Shown: positions 6,410-13,595 of the stretch, one piece after another
Layout: each line of letters begins with the position of its first letter
Position numbering within the stretch: position 1 is the first letter of the stretch
Virus record (IMG/VR): IMGVR_UViG_3300035204_000146
Span: 1 to 21,893 of that record
Strand: one strand, 5' to 3'
From: a virus
DNA length: 21,893 bases
Position numbers and translations under genes: made by a program
The notes under the pieces: model-generated
What the model saw: the letters and a program-made list of their open reading frames with translations, nothing else
Database searches by the model: none
What the model was told of the DNA's origin: nothing

Positions 6410-6985
6410 ATGAGTGGTAATCCTGCGGATTCCCAATTTGTACCGCCAGCCATTTTGAATAGAGCAGCAGGTTTTTATTATTTCGCTGACAATTTCACGC
6501 TGGAGACTACTGCCCCGATTGTGGAGTGGATTTTAAGTCACAACATGGCCCCTCAGAGTAAAAGGCTACCAAACCTGACTTTGATTATTAATAGCCCCGG
6601 AGGTAATCTACATAGCTGCTTTGCTTTGGTAGATGTTATGCGAGGAAGTGCCATCCCTATACACACAGTAGGTTTAGGAATGGTAGCTTCATGTGGTGTT
6701 GTAACCTTCATGGCAGGGGAGAAAGGTCATCGAACCCTCACCCCTAACACCTCCATCTTATCCCACCAATACTCTTGGGGATCAGGCGGTAAGGAACACG
6801 AACTACTTGCGAGAGTCAGGGAGTTTGAACTGTCTACGGAACGTATGATGGCTCATTATAGGAAATGTACAGGTCTGCCCAATAAGAAGATACGAGAGAT
6901 ACTTCTACCTGCGGAAGACGTATGGTTGTCAGCCCAAGATGCTGTGAAGCATGGAATAGCCGACAATATCAAAACCCTTAAATAG
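6410..6985 (+). CDS. ClpP-like serine protease (probable prohead protease)
   Basis: This 191-aa protein has the ClpP/crotonase fold signature. LIINSPGGN (58-66) forms the oxyanion strand. Ser94 in GMVASCG is the nucleophile, His119 in LSHQYSWG the base, and Asp170 in AEDVWLSAQDAVKHGIAD completes the triad at the usual ClpP spacing. There is no signal peptide, so it acts in the cytoplasm. Between portal and scaffold, a ClpP-type enzyme is most often the head maturation protease that trims scaffold or capsid proteins during assembly. A less likely alternative is a host-targeted protease. GGTGGGAG, a good ribosome site, lies about ten bases before the ATG. Confidence 0.85.
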   Translation: MSGNPADSQFVPPAILNRAAGFYYFADNFTLETTAPIVEWILSHNMAPQSKRLPNLTLIINSPGGNLHSCFALVDVMRGSAIPIHTVGLGMVASCGVVTFMAGEKGHRTLTPNTSILSHQYSWGSGGKEHELLARVREFELSTERMMAHYRKCTGLPNKKIREILLPAEDVWLSAQDAVKHGIADNIKTLK

Positions 6986-6994
6986 GAGTATGTT

Positions 6995-7087
6995 ATGAAG
7001 AAGTATATGCGTTATTTAATTATAGCGGCAGTAGTTGCCTTAGTTGCATATAATGTAATGTTTGGCGACCCTTCAGCCGCAGTGTAG
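6995..7087 (+). CDS. 30-residue single-span membrane peptide
   Basis: ATG at 6995 has a good Shine-Dalgarno (AGGAG, 6984-6988) and opens a 30-codon frame ending at TAG 7085-7087. The peptide has a basic start (MKKYMRY), one hydrophobic helix (LIIAAVVALVAYNVMF) and a short tail, so it should insert in the inner membrane with the N-terminus inside or act as a short secreted peptide. It ends one base before the next ATG, which suggests coupling to the membrane protease. Small phage peptides like this can be pinholins, chaperones of a membrane complex, or superinfection-exclusion factors. No homology is claimed; reality rests on the ribosome site, the hydrophobic pattern and the tight fit between neighbours. 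Confidence 0.6.
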   Translation: MKKYMRYLIIAAVVALVAYNVMFGDPSAAV

Positions 7088-7088
7088 T

Positions 7089-7874
7089 ATGCTTGCCTTA
7101 AAGAGGGCAGTACGAGAAGCAAGGATGCTTCTTTTTCTTATTGTTGCTATAGCAGGGGTCATCTTCGTACCTAAAGCGGTGAACACCTTTATTCTGGACA
7201 TAGAAGAAAGTGTTGAAGAAGAAGCCCCGCAAGAAGACCCCCAAGGGTTAGAGTTCAAGAAACTAAAGGGCAACCTCTATTCTTTAACAGGATCGGTACA
7301 GCAGGGAGACTGCGAGAAAATAGCGAAGGACTTTCCTGACCGCTTTGTCGTCATCTTAGAAAGTCCGGGGGGCAGTTTAGCAGAGGGGATATGCCTAGCC
7401 TCCCACTTAAAGATAAGAGAAGTAATTACAGTAGTAAGAGACACCCCCGTTTATAACGTGGAAGGTGAAGAGGTATACACCCCCGGATTGGTGGGCGAGG
7501 ACGGAGACAAGACAAGAGTAGTCTGTGCTTCAGCTTGCAGCTTAATGTTTCTGGGCGGTGACGAGAGATACCTTATGGGTAAAGTATGGTTCGGTATACA
7601 TGGGCCAAGAACCCCAGAAGAGCATTTGAGAAACCAAGGTAAGAGTGCCATAGAGCAGTCATCCTATCAAACAGCAGGAAGAATTTTACAGACACTAAAG
7701 CAACTAGGCGTAGAGAATGAGAGGGTACGGCTATCATTTATAATGATCCCCGGAACTTCCATGTATTGGCTAAATCCTAGAGATTTCAAACTGGAGCCAG
7801 ACTTAATTCACTTGGCCACCCACTATAAAGATTTCTGGGGTTTTAGCGCAGAGAACCTAAGAGCAGGTCTGTGA
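7089..7874 (+). CDS. Membrane-anchored ClpP-like (SppA/COG3904-type) protease
   Basis: I place the start at ATG 7089, one base after the small peptide's stop; a TTG nine codons upstream at 7062 would overlap it. The 261-aa protein has a basic N-terminus, one signal-anchor helix (MLLFLIVAIAGVIFVP, residues 13-28) and an acidic linker. The ClpP-like domain follows from about residue 60: VVILESPGGSLAEG (87-100), the nucleophile region CASACSLMFLGG with Ser148, and GIHGPR with His171. The C-x-S-x-C arrangement and following FLGG match periplasmic ClpP-like proteins of the COG3904 type. The domain should face the periplasm. It could process envelope proteins or peptides handled by the transporter next door. 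Activity is unproven; the aspartate is not certain (perhaps D232). Confidence 0.75.
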   Translation: MLALKRAVREARMLLFLIVAIAGVIFVPKAVNTFILDIEESVEEEAPQEDPQGLEFKKLKGNLYSLTGSVQQGDCEKIAKDFPDRFVVILESPGGSLAEGICLASHLKIREVITVVRDTPVYNVEGEEVYTPGLVGEDGDKTRVVCASACSLMFLGGDERYLMGKVWFGIHGPRTPEEHLRNQGKSAIEQSSYQTAGRILQTLKQLGVENERVRLSFIMIPGTSMYWLNPRDFKLEPDLIHLATHYKDFWGFSAENLRAGL

Positions 7875-7875
7875 T

Positions 7876-8892
7876 ATGATTAAGTCATTCTTCTTTTCAA
7901 AAAGTAATTTTCTGTACGCTTGGACATTCCTAGCAATCATAATGGGGATAACGTGGTATAACGTAGAAATCCTCGTAGCCCATAACCGTTTTGGGCGAGA
8001 GCTATGGGACGCTATTCAAGCCTACAACGAGACTAGGTTCTGGGATTTATTCTTGGGGTTTAGTCCTGATCGTTTTGCAGACATGGTAATGATGGACGAG
8101 GATGTAGTCCCGTCCTTCGTGGAGATATTAATTCTCTATACACCTCTATCAGTGTATGCCGTTTGGCAGACAAGGCGCTTTGTATTCCGCTGGAGAGAGG
8201 CTAACACCCACTATTATTTGGAACGGTGGCAGAAGTCTAATATCAAGATAGAAGGTGCCAGCCAACGCTTGCAGGAAGACCTGATGATCTTCGGCAAGAC
8301 TTTAGAATCCTTATTTGTAGGTTTCTTCTCAGCGGGTCTGGTGCTAGTGGCCTTCCTCCCAATTCTATGGGATTTGAGTGCGGCACTACCTATCTGGAAC
8401 GGTGAGATTATACCCGGCTTCCTAGTGTGGGTAGCCTTGGGGTTCAGTCTAGGTGGTACACTTATCAGCCTCTTGTTAGGTTGGTGGTTGCCCCGTCTAG
8501 AATATAATAATCAGGTGGTCGAAGCAGTATTCCGTAAGCGCCTAGTGCATTCAGAAGATGACTTTAGCGCAAGAGATATAAACACATTATTCCCCATGTT
8601 CGCAGCAGTTAAGCGTAACTACTACAAACTGTTTAACTACTACATGGGATTTGGCGTATGGCAGACAGCTTTCGGTCTGTGTTTAGGAAACGTAGCTCTG
8701 ATCGCCCTAGCCCCAGCGTACTTCCAACAACTAGTGACTTTGGGTGTACTACAGCAGGTCTTGGGTGCCTTCAGTCGAGTGGAGTCTTCTATGACATTCT
8801 TCATCGACAGGTGGACAACCATTGTGGATTTCCAATCGGTTATCATGCGTCTTCGGGAATTTAATAAAGCACTCAAGGAGGCAGGTGTATGA
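7876..8892 (+). CDS. SbmA/BacA-family inner-membrane peptide transporter
   Basis: This 338-aa multi-span membrane protein matches the SbmA/BacA family closely by memory of E. coli SbmA. FVFRWREA...YYLERWQ (102-119), IEGASQRLQEDLMIFGKTLE (125-144), LVAFLPIL (157-164), LEYNNQVVEAVFRK (208-221) and SEDD (226-229) all have near-identical counterparts there, as do AVKRNYYKLF and the FFIDRWTTIVD end. SbmA and BacA import antimicrobial peptides, microcins and modified peptides using the proton gradient, and lack an ATPase domain, as does this protein. It is about 70 residues shorter than SbmA (406 aa), mainly at the N-terminus, so one membrane helix may be missing. It starts one base after the protease stop and overlaps the next gene by ATGA. 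Function in a phage is unknown. Confidence 0.88.
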   Translation: MIKSFFFSKSNFLYAWTFLAIIMGITWYNVEILVAHNRFGRELWDAIQAYNETRFWDLFLGFSPDRFADMVMMDEDVVPSFVEILILYTPLSVYAVWQTRRFVFRWREANTHYYLERWQKSNIKIEGASQRLQEDLMIFGKTLESLFVGFFSAGLVLVAFLPILWDLSAALPIWNGEIIPGFLVWVALGFSLGGTLISLLLGWWLPRLEYNNQVVEAVFRKRLVHSEDDFSARDINTLFPMFAAVKRNYYKLFNYYMGFGVWQTAFGLCLGNVALIALAPAYFQQLVTLGVLQQVLGAFSRVESSMTFFIDRWTTIVDFQSVIMRLREFNKALKEAGV

Positions 8893-9347
8893 GTAAGTTC
8901 ATTAAGTGGTGGTTGGAGTTCTGTCTAATACTAGGGGGGACATATACCGCATACTCTTATGGACTTCTCACAATGGTCTTCGACAATGATATAACTAAGT
9001 TATCCTATTTAATACTAGGTTTATTCTTTGCCTTCACTGCCCTCCTTGGGTTGGACGTATTCGTGAAGAAGGTAGGTGATGGCCTGCTATATGTAGGTTG
9101 GTTTATATCTGAGATTCTACTGGGTCTTGGTATGCTGGGAACCGTCATAGGTTTTATCTACATGCTAAGTGGCTCTATGGGAGGTATGGACACCTCTGAC
9201 ACTGAAACGATCAAGGAAGCCCTCACCATAATGGCCTCTGGTATGGCAACTGCGCTCTATACAACGGCAATGGGTTTAATAACCAGCCTACTCCTAAAGG
9301 TGCAGTTAATTACTCTGGAGAATCCTAATGTCTCAGGCAAGGAGTAG
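8889..9347 (+). CDS. Minimal MotA/TolQ/ExbB-family proton channel subunit
   Basis: This 152-aa protein has four hydrophobic segments (about residues 7-31, 36-58, 66-95 and 111-140). The last two carry the family hallmarks: GMLGTVIGFIYML (81-93) and MASGMATALYTTAMGLITSL (115-134), corresponding to the pore helices of TolQ, ExbB and MotA. The large cytoplasmic loop of ExbB/TolQ and the long tail of ZorA are missing, so this is a stripped-down version. Such proteins form pentamers around a dimer of the MotB/ExbD type and turn proton flow into movement. A very strong ribosome site (AAGGAGG, 8876-8882) precedes the ATG. It overlaps the transporter by 4 bases and the partner gene by 20. Confidence 0.82.
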   Translation: MSKFIKWWLEFCLILGGTYTAYSYGLLTMVFDNDITKLSYLILGLFFAFTALLGLDVFVKKVGDGLLYVGWFISEILLGLGMLGTVIGFIYMLSGSMGGMDTSDTETIKEALTIMASGMATALYTTAMGLITSLLLKVQLITLENPNVSGKE

Positions 9348-9951
9348 GTTCAAGAGTTCTACAGCCTTTCAGGATTTATTATTTAATATGCTGCTGGGCT
9401 TTGTGTTTCTTTTTATGGTGGCTTTACTGCTTATCAACCCCATAACAAAGAAGGCAGATGTTCCCAAGAAGGCCGAGTATCTGATTACGCTCAGTTGGGC
9501 AGACGAGTCCACTACTGATGTAGATTTATGGGTTAAAAGCCCTAGCGGTAAGGTCGCTTCCTTCATCAACAAGAACGTGGGTCTACTGCATTTGGAGAGG
9601 GATGATCTAGGACTTAGAAACGATACTGTCACTGATCGTTTAGGTAAGGAACTTGAAGTTCGGATCAATGAAGAGACAGTCACACTACGAGGCATTGAGG
9701 CAGGTGAATACGAGGTCATGGCCCATATATATCGTAAGCCTGTAAATGAAACTGGTGGGGATATTACAATCAAGGTGATGCAGATTAATCCCTATGGCGT
9801 TAGATACATAGGCACCCTTTCTTTCACTTCAATGGGCCAAGCAATCAGTTTGGTGAGGTTTGAATTAGATGCAGACGGTAAGTTTTTGGGCTTTAATAAC
9901 TTACCTTCTAACTTCATCCCTTCCTATCGTGTTTCGGAGGCGGGGGCATGA
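9328..9951 (+). CDS. MotB/ExbD/ZorB-like partner with a DUF2135/YfaP-like domain
   Basis: This 207-aa protein has a short cytoplasmic start, then one membrane helix (FQDLLFNMLLGFVFLFMVAL, residues 14-33). Asp16 sits where MotB, ExbD and ZorB have their essential proton-relaying aspartate. The periplasmic part (about 48-190) is beta-rich and includes LSWADESTTDVDLWVKSPSG and LHLERDDLG, resembling DUF2135/YfaP-type domains rather than the peptidoglycan-binding OmpA-like domain of MotB. GGAG about ten bases before the ATG supports the start, which lies inside the end of the channel gene, as expected for a stoichiometric pair. The domain may grip an envelope target that the stator pulls or twists. 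The YfaP-like call is from motif resemblance only. Confidence 0.72.
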   Translation: MSQARSRFKSSTAFQDLLFNMLLGFVFLFMVALLLINPITKKADVPKKAEYLITLSWADESTTDVDLWVKSPSGKVASFINKNVGLLHLERDDLGLRNDTVTDRLGKELEVRINEETVTLRGIEAGEYEVMAHIYRKPVNETGGDITIKVMQINPYGVRYIGTLSFTSMGQAISLVRFELDADGKFLGFNNLPSNFIPSYRVSEAGA

Positions 9952-10427
9952 GCCTAGAAGAATATCAATTAATTATCCCTGCCTGTATCCTATTAACAGT
10001 GTGCGTATCTGTGTGGGCCTTACTGACCACCAAGAGGGTGAGGACACTAGTCATACTGATCCCCATCCTTGTTACGGCAGGGTATGGTTCTTTTAGTTCA
10101 GTAAATTCAATCTTAGGCTATCCCACCGAAGCCCACTTCACAGAAGAGCATGTGTACCTACACCACCGAGTAGATAAGGAAGCCGATAAAATCTACGTGT
10201 GGGCATTGACCAAAAGGCGCACCCCAAGGGCATTTGCTATCCCATACAGTAAAGATTCAGAGAAGAAATTGAACGAAGCCCAAGGGAAATCCCAAAAAGG
10301 CATCCCCCAGATTATTGAAGGTAAGGACAATAAGAACCGAAAGGTAAAAGAGTCCGACAGCAGGGACGAATCCCTTAGAATATATGATTTTAACATGAGC
10401 GCAGACATTCGTAAGAACGAGGATTAA
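9948..10427 (+). CDS. Two-helix membrane protein of unknown function
   Basis: This 159-aa protein overlaps the previous gene by ATGA. It has two membrane helices near the N-terminus (about residues 6-26 and 31-52), then a soluble region with a beta-like segment (HVYLHHRVDKEADKIYVWAL), a Lys/Arg-rich stretch and a charged tail with many Asp, Glu and Lys residues. I do not recognise a family. With a short loop between helices, both ends should be on the same side of the membrane. Its tight linkage to the channel pair suggests it is a third subunit or a regulator of that complex, perhaps a cytoplasmic plug or adaptor, but this is inference. Confidence 0.72.
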   Translation: MSLEEYQLIIPACILLTVCVSVWALLTTKRVRTLVILIPILVTAGYGSFSSVNSILGYPTEAHFTEEHVYLHHRVDKEADKIYVWALTKRRTPRAFAIPYSKDSEKKLNEAQGKSQKGIPQIIEGKDNKNRKVKESDSRDESLRIYDFNMSADIRKNED

Positions 10428-10430
10428 TTA

Positions 10431-13400
10431 GTGAGTTTAACACCTACAGAACTAGTAAAAAATGCAGCCAAACACGCTGAGAATGAGAGTAAGACAGGTT
10501 ATGACCCTGTATCAGGCGTTTGGTTTTCTCACGATTCCCCTGAAGGAGGTTTAGCTACGATTGGCTACGGACACAAAGGGGGTTCCTCAGATGAAGTAGC
10601 CTCATGGAGTATAGGTGGTTTAACGGACGAGCAGGTCAATAAGAACTTTGTTAAGGATTGGGATGAAGCCTTCCAAGTTGCTGCCAACCAATACAATGCA
10701 GCCCATGAAGATTCCTTCTCTGACCTGCCAGAAATAGGCCAAGCCCTACTTTCTGAAATTGCCTTCAATGTAGGTGGGGTAAACAATAGTTCAGGAGGGT
10801 TCGGCTGGCCTAACCTAGTGAAAGCTATCAAGGAAGACGACCTTGCTGGTATGAAGAAAGAGATTAATCGCACGTACACTGACTCTGATGGCAATGAACA
10901 TTCAATGGACAGACGTGTAGGCTTTCTACGTGATGCCATAGATGACTCTGTGGGTGCGCCTCTGACAGGTAACGCCCCCAACCCAGCTAACGGTGAAGAC
11001 GTAGGTTCCATAGAAGCCTTACCTGATAGTTACAGCCACAAGATAGGCGACTTCTTATCTGGTCTTATGGGAGGCAACCAAGCCACACGAAATCGCAGAA
11101 CACAAACAATTAGTGGCCTGATGGATTGGACACCTGTGGGTGGTAAGGATTTATGGGATGAAGGGAAGTGGGAGGCCGAGAAGGGTGATGTAGGTGACGG
11201 TGCTTTAGATATGTTCATGGGAGGTCTAGACTTTATACCCGGAGCTACCGTTGTAACTAAACCTGCAAAAGCAGCGGCAAAAGTAGTTTCTGAAGGTGCC
11301 GATAAAGCTACAGGCTTAATGTCAGCCAAACTAAGGGAGGCAGGCGAGAGCCTGTTCACCCCAGAGTCTATGGCTGCGGCTAAACGTGTTGCTGGTAGCG
11401 ACAGGTCTAGGGAAACCTTAGTGTACATGCCCCCCGAAGATTTCCTTAAAATGGCTGACGCAGGAGAAGATGCGAGCAAGGCGGCAGGAGTCAAGGCTCT
11501 ACGGGAAGAGGGTAAGCAATTCTCAGATGTGCCGTTTCTCAGCATAAGTGATAAAGGGGAAGGTACAGTGCAGGTAGTGGGGCATGAGGGCCGCCACCGA
11601 GCAAGGCAAGCCATCGAAGAAGGTGTGGCTACTATGCCTGTACGTTTAAACAGCGTGTACCACCCTAAAGGTGGGTATGAGTTTAGATGGGGGGAGTTAG
11701 CAGACGAGCCTATAGAGTCCCGTCCATACAAAATGGTAAGTGAGGACGGGGAGACTACTTTAGCCCTACCTAAGAATGAATATTTCCCCTACGAAACATT
11801 GGATTCAGTGCCTGCCACAACTTCAGAACCTGAAGATATATTAGGCGCACTCGTAGAAGATGCCGAGGTAGAGGCCATAAATGCTGCCGCAGGTGTATCT
11901 GATCTCCCTAGAGCAACGTCCCGAATAGACGAGGCTAAAGGTTGGGATTGGTCAACAGAAAAACCACAAGAATTTAACACTGGAGGAATGGTAGGCATGA
12001 TGACACCTACGCTAGAAGTAATCGTAGGACATGACGAGGAATCAGGCAATCCTATTCCAGCAGGTTCTACAGACAAAGAAGTACGAGATGATGTTGAAGC
12101 ACTACTTAGTGAAGGTGAGTATGTCTTGCCTGCTGATGTAGTTAAGTGGCATGGCTTAAAGCACATCCAAGAGATGCGTAACGAGGCTAAAGCTGGCCTT
12201 ATGTGCATGTGTATGGATGGCCAGATCAAGACACCTGAGAGTGACGAAGACTACGAAGAGCCTTCGGATGATGAAGATGTAGAAGTTACTGAAGAAGGCA
12301 ATGAGATTGAAGTAGTCGATAACACTGACGAGAAGAAGATCAAGGCGGCTGATGGTGGTCTTGTTACTTCTGGAGAAGATGGAGGCACTTCCTCTCTTGG
12401 TTACTTGATCCGTAGACTGGTACGAGGCCCAGATGGTCGTATGATTGTACGTTACTTTGATCCCCAGACAGGTATGTACGTAGATGATCCTACAGGCTAC
12501 GAAGTATTAGATCAAAGTGCTTACAACTCACTAACTGGCCCCGGTATGCAGGAACCTGATTCAGGTGAGGACACGGCAGCAGAAGAAGTGGTCGAGGAGG
12601 CTGCTACTACTAGTGGAGGTGGTAGTGACAAGGATGATGATAACTCATTTGAGGCTGCTACCCCAATAGAACGTAACCAGTGGAACGACTACGGCTTTAG
12701 TGACCCTAACACTCTAGCAACTATGGGTGCAGGGCTATTAGGTGGCCCTCTTGTCGGTGGTCTTACTCGGTTTGGCCAAAGCCACAATAATGCTGAAGCT
12801 GTAGATGCAGCCAGAGAAGACTTAGGCATGGAAGGCTTAGGCTGGTGGGATAAAGTCAAGGGTGGTTTCACAGGTAAATATAATACAGGTGAAATTGGCC
12901 GAGGAACCATAGGTGAGAACGACTATACGGCTGGGTTCGGTGGCCGAGTTCTGACTGATGAAGATGGTAATCAGATCACTACCCTAACCCCTAACGAATA
13001 CAAGAAGCGTACAGCGGCACAAGACATTGATATTAGCAAGCTGCCCAGCGCCACCGATAGCTCTTCAGGTTCTGGCATTATGTCGAGTCAAGTTAACGAC
13101 ACCCCTACTTCCATTTCCGATGATGTAGCAGAGAAAGAAGATGGGTACAGTACTCCGGCCTACACTGACCACAGTAGTGATGTAGAGATGGACACTGACT
13201 TTGGTTCTTGGTGGGATGACATAGAGACTGACGAGGTAGAGGTAGACACAGCACCCCATGCTGAAATTTCAGGGGAGTCCCGCTACTTTGTTCATGACAT
13301 GGAGCCAGAGGACTACACCTTAGAGGCTGGCCTTGTCCCTAGAGACACTGCCTCCCCAACGGACGAAATACAAGAAGTTGCGGATACCTTAGTCAACTGG

Positions 13401-13595
13401 GGTACAGACGAACCCTCTGAGGAGTTCTTTGAAGATCAGATGGTACGAGAAGGTATCTTCCAAAGGGGTGTCTTAGAAAACGGACTCAAGCGTGATCCTG
13501 TCCCGTCAGGCTCCCCCAAGACTAAGCAAGAGGTTAAAGACAGCCTCGACTACGCCAAGGAAAAATACGGCTTCCTTGCTAAAGGTGGTCGCTAA
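10431..13595 (+). CDS. Multidomain internal virion protein with N-terminal lysozyme domain
   Basis: This 1054-aa protein starts at GTG 10431, three bases after the previous stop. Residues 1-175 form a phage lysozyme-like domain: Glu17 or Glu19 as catalytic acid, TIGYGHK (43-49), and the C-terminal helix RRVGFLRDA. An Ala/Gly-rich linker follows. Residues 330-410 resemble a ParB-like nuclease or sulfiredoxin-type fold, with VVGHEGRHRAR at 382-392. A motif common in aquatic phage structural proteins (VEALLSEGEYVLPADVVKWH, 555-574) precedes a very acidic, low-complexity C-terminus ending FLAKGGR. Such giant proteins are usually packaged and ejected, and the lysozyme opens peptidoglycan during infection. 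It could alternatively serve in lysis, since no separate endolysin is visible. ParB-like activity is not shown. Confidence 0.75.
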   Translation: MSLTPTELVKNAAKHAENESKTGYDPVSGVWFSHDSPEGGLATIGYGHKGGSSDEVASWSIGGLTDEQVNKNFVKDWDEAFQVAANQYNAAHEDSFSDLPEIGQALLSEIAFNVGGVNNSSGGFGWPNLVKAIKEDDLAGMKKEINRTYTDSDGNEHSMDRRVGFLRDAIDDSVGAPLTGNAPNPANGEDVGSIEALPDSYSHKIGDFLSGLMGGNQATRNRRTQTISGLMDWTPVGGKDLWDEGKWEAEKGDVGDGALDMFMGGLDFIPGATVVTKPAKAAAKVVSEGADKATGLMSAKLREAGESLFTPESMAAAKRVAGSDRSRETLVYMPPEDFLKMADAGEDASKAAGVKALREEGKQFSDVPFLSISDKGEGTVQVVGHEGRHRARQAIEEGVATMPVRLNSVYHPKGGYEFRWGELADEPIESRPYKMVSEDGETTLALPKNEYFPYETLDSVPATTSEPEDILGALVEDAEVEAINAAAGVSDLPRATSRIDEAKGWDWSTEKPQEFNTGGMVGMMTPTLEVIVGHDEESGNPIPAGSTDKEVRDDVEALLSEGEYVLPADVVKWHGLKHIQEMRNEAKAGLMCMCMDGQIKTPESDEDYEEPSDDEDVEVTEEGNEIEVVDNTDEKKIKAADGGLVTSGEDGGTSSLGYLIRRLVRGPDGRMIVRYFDPQTGMYVDDPTGYEVLDQSAYNSLTGPGMQEPDSGEDTAAEEVVEEAATTSGGGSDKDDDNSFEAATPIERNQWNDYGFSDPNTLATMGAGLLGGPLVGGLTRFGQSHNNAEAVDAAREDLGMEGLGWWDKVKGGFTGKYNTGEIGRGTIGENDYTAGFGGRVLTDEDGNQITTLTPNEYKKRTAAQDIDISKLPSATDSSSGSGIMSSQVNDTPTSISDDVAEKEDGYSTPAYTDHSSDVEMDTDFGSWWDDIETDEVEVDTAPHAEISGESRYFVHDMEPEDYTLEAGLVPRDTASPTDEIQEVADTLVNWGTDEPSEEFFEDQMVREGIFQRGVLENGLKRDPVPSGSPKTKQEVKDSLDYAKEKYGFLAKGGR

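Follow-up and report, generated by a model that had tools for sequence, protein, structure and literature searches.

The question raised by this locus is whether two small overlapping genes of a virus, here called A and B, encode a minimal ion-driven motor, and what such a motor may do during infection. The genes lie in IMG/VR virus record IMGVR_UViG_3300035204_000146, whose 21,893 bases are referred to below as the window; it carries genes for a terminase, an SU10-like portal and a ClpP-family head protease, and a nucleotide search of the phage collection with it returned one short match only. As predicted originally, both ORFs are present on the plus strand (A, 8889–9347; B, 9328–9951), with ATG starts and overlapping neighbours. 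They belong to a stretch of five genes arranged head to tail on that strand (7062–10427), in which all four junctions overlap or are 1 base apart. The first encodes a membrane-anchored ClpP-like protease (7062–7874, start possibly at the ATG at 7089), identified by hhalign and an N-terminal hydrophobic segment, and the second an SbmA/BacA-family peptide importer (7876–8892; Pfam PF05992, E = 2.1e-72), which overlaps the start of A; A, B and C (9948–10427), all small membrane proteins, follow. Gene C and the five-gene context with the ClpP-like protease and SbmA are additions to the A-B pair noticed at the outset. The separate ClpP-family protease (6410–6985, plus strand; PF00574, E = 6.1e-29; PHROG head maturation protease) is probably the phage head protease and is a neighbour only. 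With terminase, portal and head protease upstream, the module stands in a late structural gene setting in the window. A lytic phage is not shown: with 21.9 kb the window is only a fragment, and the relative 16-3 is temperate, its record containing int and attP.

Gene A encodes a MotA/TolQ/ExbB-family channel subunit of 152 amino acids. The window protein matches the Pfam family MotA_ExbB (PF01618) with E = 1.3e-6 and 28.7 bits against a cut-off of 22.9, and 83 of 84 relatives match the same family at E ≤ 0.01. Matches to solved structures in a PDB profile search are weak, the best being TolQ (E = 0.0016), followed by ExbB, MotA and two chains with MotA/TolQ/ExbB domains. T85 (9141–9143), which lies in the first conserved helix (motif GTV.G), is threonine in 82/84 relatives, while T126 (9264–9266), within the A...T..G motif of the last helix, and D34 are kept in 84/84. 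The conserved Ser/Thr expected on the pore helices of 5:2 motors are present in the form of T85 and T126, which presumably correspond by motif to the pore threonines of ExbB and TolQ and would face the pore. Numbers for these pore residues were not found in one paper on Ton/Tol structure (PMC12215075). Four hydropathy segments are found in 46 of the 84 relatives, three in 27 and two in 11, and only two segments of the window protein pass the threshold. The loop between helices 2 and 3 is very short in phage proteins (10–20 residues, median 16, n = 42) compared with cellular ones (23–87 residues, median 74.5, n = 42), and 7–23 residues follow the last helix in phages versus 19–35 in cells, in line with the predicted minimal channel subunit that lacks the cytoplasmic domain and the tail. 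As the tree is unrooted, the loop may have been lost in phages or gained in cells. To our knowledge, phage A is among the smallest channel subunits of such motors.

Gene B encodes a MotB-like partner of 207 amino acids with one membrane helix (residues 11–36; 9358–9435) and a beta-sandwich domain. A single hydrophobic segment is predicted in 91/91 relatives, and D16 (9373–9375), the candidate ion-carrying aspartate, is aspartate in all 61 phage and all 30 cellular rows, in support of the proposed one-helix partner with an invariant aspartate. Profile comparison pairs the helix with that of MotB such that D16 meets the catalytic aspartate (E = 0.002), ahead of 31 membrane-segment controls (best E = 0.007); the corresponding value against ExbD is 0.056, and the positive control ExbD-MotB gives 8.3e-6. 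No ExbD or MotB Pfam family is among the matches listed. The likeness of this helix to MotB/ExbD is thus marginal, with the profile comparison speaking for it and the Pfam scan against it. Coevolution of A and B was set aside as support for a contact, as its two measures are contradictory: by mutual information, 10 of the top 40 pairs join the pore helices to the B helix (5% expected), whereas by mean-field DCA none of the top 40 pairs does.

The AlphaFold2 model of B (88 sequences) has a mean pLDDT of 90.1 and comprises helix 11–36 and an 11-strand domain (residues 51–190; 9478–9897), putatively periplasmic. This modelled beta-sandwich stands in place of a peptidoglycan-binding domain, no OmpA being among the matches listed, which agrees with the original prediction. 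The five top-ranking structures in comparison with the PDB have Z scores of 9.7–11.5, two of them titled TerD-like, and the next has 7.0; the closest is TerD (3ibz; Z = 11.5, rmsd 3.7, 136 residues). Foldseek gave no match of B to the PDB at E ≤ 1e-3, and the pore-forming toxins heading its output were disregarded, as their TM-scores are about 0.15. The modelled domain is thus closest to TerD in fold, while the profile comparison gives no support for kinship with TerD at this sensitivity (hhalign E = 0.092, within the range of the controls). Alignment with E. coli YfaP (DUF2135) gives E = 2.7e-6 over 85 columns with a probability of 88.6. The best of 120 control families reaches only E = 0.022, and YfaP in reversed form gives 0.16. 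A scan of 56 gammaproteobacterial genomes for PF09906 returned no match, and the comparison was therefore made with the single E. coli protein. Single-sequence Pfam scans detected DUF2135 (PF09906) in 6 of 91 B relatives (best E = 0.0012) and not in the window protein. The suggested resemblance to DUF2135/YfaP is thus retained as a distant relationship, apparent by hhalign only and weak in single sequences. Besides D16, residues W57, D64, D66, D92, D93, G95, E116, R121 and G126 are invariant in the 91 relatives. TerD binds calcium, and by analogy the invariant acidic residues D64, D66, D92, D93 and E116 suggest a putative metal site in the B domain.

Gene C (159 amino acids) overlaps the end of B and follows it in nearly all loci. 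Its model (92 sequences; pLDDT 84.4) consists of two membrane helices and a small alpha/beta domain, for which only weak OB-like fold matches (Z = 7.2) were obtained; Foldseek against the PDB yielded no match at E ≤ 1e-3. The loop between the two helices is positively charged as read by eye, and the domain is for this reason placed in the periplasm. C would then be the third membrane subunit of the module.

Ion-driven 5:2 motors power flagella, the Tol and Ton systems, gliding, type 9 secretion and Zorya. The proteins described here resemble TolQR and ExbBD in that A belongs to PF01618, with TolQ and ExbB as its best PDB profile matches, and in that the partner has one helix with a helix aspartate; they differ in the missing cytoplasmic domain of phage A and in the DUF2135/TerD-like outer domain of B, and none of the matches of gene C, obtained in general searches only, is TolA or TonB. 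MotAB is similar in the up to four predicted helices of A and in the alignment of the B helix at the MotB aspartate, but A lacks the expanded cytoplasmic torque interface and B the OmpA-like peptidoglycan-binding domain. In the accessible text of a MotAB survey, the expanded cytoplasmic torque domain is treated as a feature of flagellar stators (FIT class), non-flagellar relatives are put together as diverse 'generic ion transporters', and phages enter only through Zorya (PMC12505986). As for ZorAB, PADLOC matches A to ZorA models and to nothing else (best 3.1e-6), whereas the long cytoplasmic C-terminal tail of ZorA is absent from A; PADLOC returned no match for B or C and no Zorya effector (ZorC, ZorD or ZorE) among the five window and five cellular proteins scanned. 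YfaP shares with the B domain the DUF2135 profile kinship and, by eye, the order of the D-L-D-L and P-G motifs, but has neither a MotB-like helix nor an A partner among its neighbours. TerD has, besides the fold, aspartates at comparable places (by eye); terD genes of huge gut phages occur in a different context, as far as the available part of that report describes it (PMC12363816). The 'MotA' of a marine methylophage was rejected as a relative, being, in the accessible part of its description, the T4 transcription factor (PMC9004378).

In viruses the module is conserved in marine and in rhizobial phages. Searching with the A alignment yielded 343 viral relatives (80 kept), and A and B used as single queries gave 24 and 4, respectively. 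Among isolated phages, each of two B searches returned 27 records, all from phages of Rhizobium or Sinorhizobium, which include Pootjesviridae, RHph_N3_19 and the temperate phage 16-3. The module is also found in cells: the marine A alignment detected 203 relatives in genome_contigs (80 kept), many of them in loci that are plainly chromosomal on inspection, with suf, ispG or acyl-CoA dehydrogenase genes nearby; the Rhizobium-type B alignment found no relative there. B is encoded by 30 of 274 sampled genomes of Gammaproteobacteria, 30 of 240 of Alphaproteobacteria and 2 of 147 in the class of Desulfobacteraceae (one match weak). Twelve of the alphaproteobacterial genomes match far less strongly (E 1e-26 to 1e-33), perhaps through prophages. 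The chromosomal operon is present in about a tenth of the sampled Gamma- and Alphaproteobacteria, and no match occurs among 72,556 plasmid records. The order A-B-C is kept on the plus strand in 185 of 189 three-gene loci and on the minus strand in the other four, although some contigs or genomes are represented more than once among these loci, which are not all independent. The rows used from the de-replicated lists were 84/93 for A, 91/93 for B and 95/102 for C; some L031 and L033 rows were given their annotated starts, three further rows were left out of each of alignments A10 and A11, and L110, L111 and L119, from bacterial MAGs, were counted as phage by inference from their neighbours. No description of a phage-encoded member or of the A-B-C operon, and no function for this family, was found in titles and abstract openings outside subscription papers and most preprints, and the accessible text of the AP-16-3 paper does not discuss p038–p042 (PMC10460002), of which p038, p040 and p042 are the A, B and C genes of 16-3.

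The presence of a homologous chromosomal operon rules out A-B-C as a phage-only invention; the proposed minimal MotA/ExbB-type pair with a DUF2135/YfaP-like outer domain is supported. On a tree of the 59 rows common to the A and B alignments, obtained by a quick search, unrooted and with long branches, phage and cell labels need 2 changes versus a shuffled mean of 18.0, none of 500 shufflings being as low; two phage rows group with cells of Desulfobacterales. Phage and cell copies therefore appear to be largely separate lineages, and a recent pick-up from hosts was dropped as an origin on the basis of this tree. The median dN/dS of independent phage pairs is 0.098 for A (33 pairs), 0.143 for B (24) and 0.163 for C (19). 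Judged from the sequences, the module is under purifying selection, and is old in viruses and maintained.

The neighbouring genes hint at a function. When near-identical viral B proteins are grouped, flanks of at least 3.5 kb are available to either side for 45 of the 76 groups, and 16 of these 45 contain SbmA and/or a secreted protease near the module: five with SbmA and the ClpP-like protease, five with SbmA alone and six with a trypsin-like protease. The other 29 have neither SbmA nor a found protease nearby. Seen from the other side, A or B lies within 8 kb in 17 of 33 viral loci of the window-type SbmA, and a profile search places the ClpP-like gene beside SbmA in 27 of the 33; one 342-kb contig carries both sets about 30 kb apart (L041 and L307). 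Of 50,697 phage records, which cover marine phages poorly, 3 contain SbmA and none has a match to the ClpP-like gene; used alone as a pattern query, this gene found no relative in viral_contigs. The ClpP-like protein is related to the window's own ClpP (hhalign E = 1.2e-6), and its S157 and H180 are conserved in at least 95% of 27 rows. Just upstream of A, the phages 16-3, RHph_TM3_3_14B and RHph_X2_25 encode a trypsin-like protease (Pfam Trypsin_2). The module of Rhizobium phages has replication or early-type genes around it. Clusters matching the T4 neck and tail-sheath-stabiliser families (gp14/gp15-like) contain the two genes that precede A-B-C in 18 viral loci. The cellular operon is flanked in one gammaproteobacterial group by genes for an L,D-transpeptidase, a DUF302 protein and a VWA-FHA protein, and elsewhere has varied surroundings without SbmA or protease. 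As 29 of the 45 viral groups and the cellular operon do without them, coupling to proteolysis is not obligatory.

Homology to these motors is well supported, and a motor-type A-B complex is likely given the family membership of A, the helix of B with its aspartate and the constant linkage of the genes. We consider it slightly better than even (about 0.55) that A-B-C is a minimal MotA/TolQ/ExbB-type inner-membrane motor that works on the envelope in concert with a secreted protease. In such a motor, A would be the ring channel in the inner membrane and B the central axle, with the proton-binding D16 in its helix and its DUF2135/TerD-like beta-sandwich, probably metal-binding, standing in the periplasm; C would be the third membrane subunit, and the viral genes an old viral branch of the chromosomal operon. 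In an infected cell, ion flow through A-B would drive or gate movement of the outer domain of B on the host envelope, the motor would act together with the ClpP-like or trypsin-like secreted protease, and in some marine phages SbmA would import the resulting peptides. The 5:2 assembly, the ion flow, the periplasmic side of B and C, the metal binding and the role in proteolysis are parts that we infer. A peptide importer and secreted proteases of two unrelated kinds are repeatedly found next to the module, which suggests that it works on envelope proteins; this function is read from the neighbours only.

Other uses of the same proteins have to be weighed against this motor with its protease partner. 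The phage genes may tentatively be seen as an auxiliary set that supplements or replaces the host operon and keeps the envelope working during infection, whatever the cellular job of the operon is. The homologous chromosomal genes in 30/274 gammaproteobacterial and 30/240 alphaproteobacterial genomes and the two phage rows grouping with Desulfobacterales are consistent with this idea; however, in the tree the phage copies are an old lineage of their own (2 label changes over 59 rows), and their A has no cytoplasmic loop, which speaks against recent copying from hosts. It is rather doubtful that the module serves superinfection exclusion or a Zorya-like phage-borne defence, in which B would sense envelope damage, ion flow through A-B would relay the alarm and the secreted protease would be the effector. 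The ZorA models as best PADLOC matches of A, the protease neighbour recurring in unrelated phages and the presence of the module in temperate 16-3, where protection of the lysogen would pay, argue for such a role. According to the available part of one study, however, Zorya requires both the ZorA tail and the peptidoglycan-binding domain (PMC11890865). Neither is present here, B and C have no PADLOC match, and on inspection the surroundings of the chromosomal operon do not look like defence regions.

A lysis aid appears unlikely. In this case A-B would act as an ion leak or trigger for late collapse of the proton gradient or for disruption of the outer membrane, standing in for holin or spanin; A and B are indeed small membrane proteins, late structural genes surround the module in the window, and T4 gp14/gp15-like neck genes precede it in the 18 viral loci. 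MotA-type rings are normally gated, though, the Rhizobium phages show a replication or early-type setting, and a chromosomal operon in free-living bacteria is unexpected for a lysis device. Returning to the envelope motor acting with a protease, its most far-reaching form is quite improbable: an ATP-free, proton-powered machine for envelope proteolysis and peptide uptake, in which the motor would use ion flow to pull on, unfold or present envelope or periplasmic proteins to a ClpP-like protease anchored in the membrane, or to a secreted trypsin-like one, and SbmA would import the peptides.

If this last form is true, the virus would convert proteins of the host envelope into amino acids in the cytoplasm or would remove phage receptors, and motor proteins would fill the role which ATP-driven unfoldases have for cytoplasmic ClpP. 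As isolated Rhizobium phages, including temperate 16-3, carry the module, knockouts are feasible. A-B-C would represent a further family of ion-driven motors, distinguished by its outer domain and its third subunit and present across bacteria and many phages, and the minimal phage A may reveal what the core of such a machine needs.

Between the ClpP gene (6410-6985) and the gene for the ClpP-like membrane protease (7062-7874), the window contains an ORF of 30 residues (6995-7087) with a single hydrophobic segment, which overlaps the upstream start of the protease. A virion-type protein of 1054 aa is encoded at 10431-13592, in which an N-terminus weakly resembling lysozyme (Pfam Phage_lysozyme, 0.0017, under the cut-off) is fused to a long part of low-complexity appearance. 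Another viral group of SbmA-family peptide importers (L315-L319) shares 37-39% identity with the SbmA of the window (7876-8892), and within the available flanks of these loci the ClpP-like gene and the membrane module A-B-C (8889-9347, 9328-9951 and 9948-10427) are both absent.

Three loci carrying relatives of these genes (L110, L111 and L119) lie on contigs assigned to MAGs of Legionellales, Flavobacteriales and Methylophilaceae. Judged by the neighbouring genes, these contigs appear to be of phage origin and to have ended up in bacterial bins. At the phage locus L007 (3439-4659), the start of B, the one-helix partner of the MotA/TolQ/ExbB-family protein A, falls past the helix and B lies apart from A; this B may have been split by a frameshift or a sequencing error.

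In Rhizobium phage RHph_I1_18, a VWA-like protein (DUF7788/DUF2828; L225:7715-9148) is encoded downstream of both A-B-C and a tRNA cluster. In about 20 gammaproteobacterial cellular loci (group L128-L178), the neighbours of A-B-C encode an L,D-transpeptidase (YkuD), a DUF302 lipoprotein-like protein and a VWA-FHA protein. Some bacterial genomes (G010 and G001, other contigs) possess two copies of B; the second B of G010 is far more distant (1.3e-33) and is perhaps a prophage copy.
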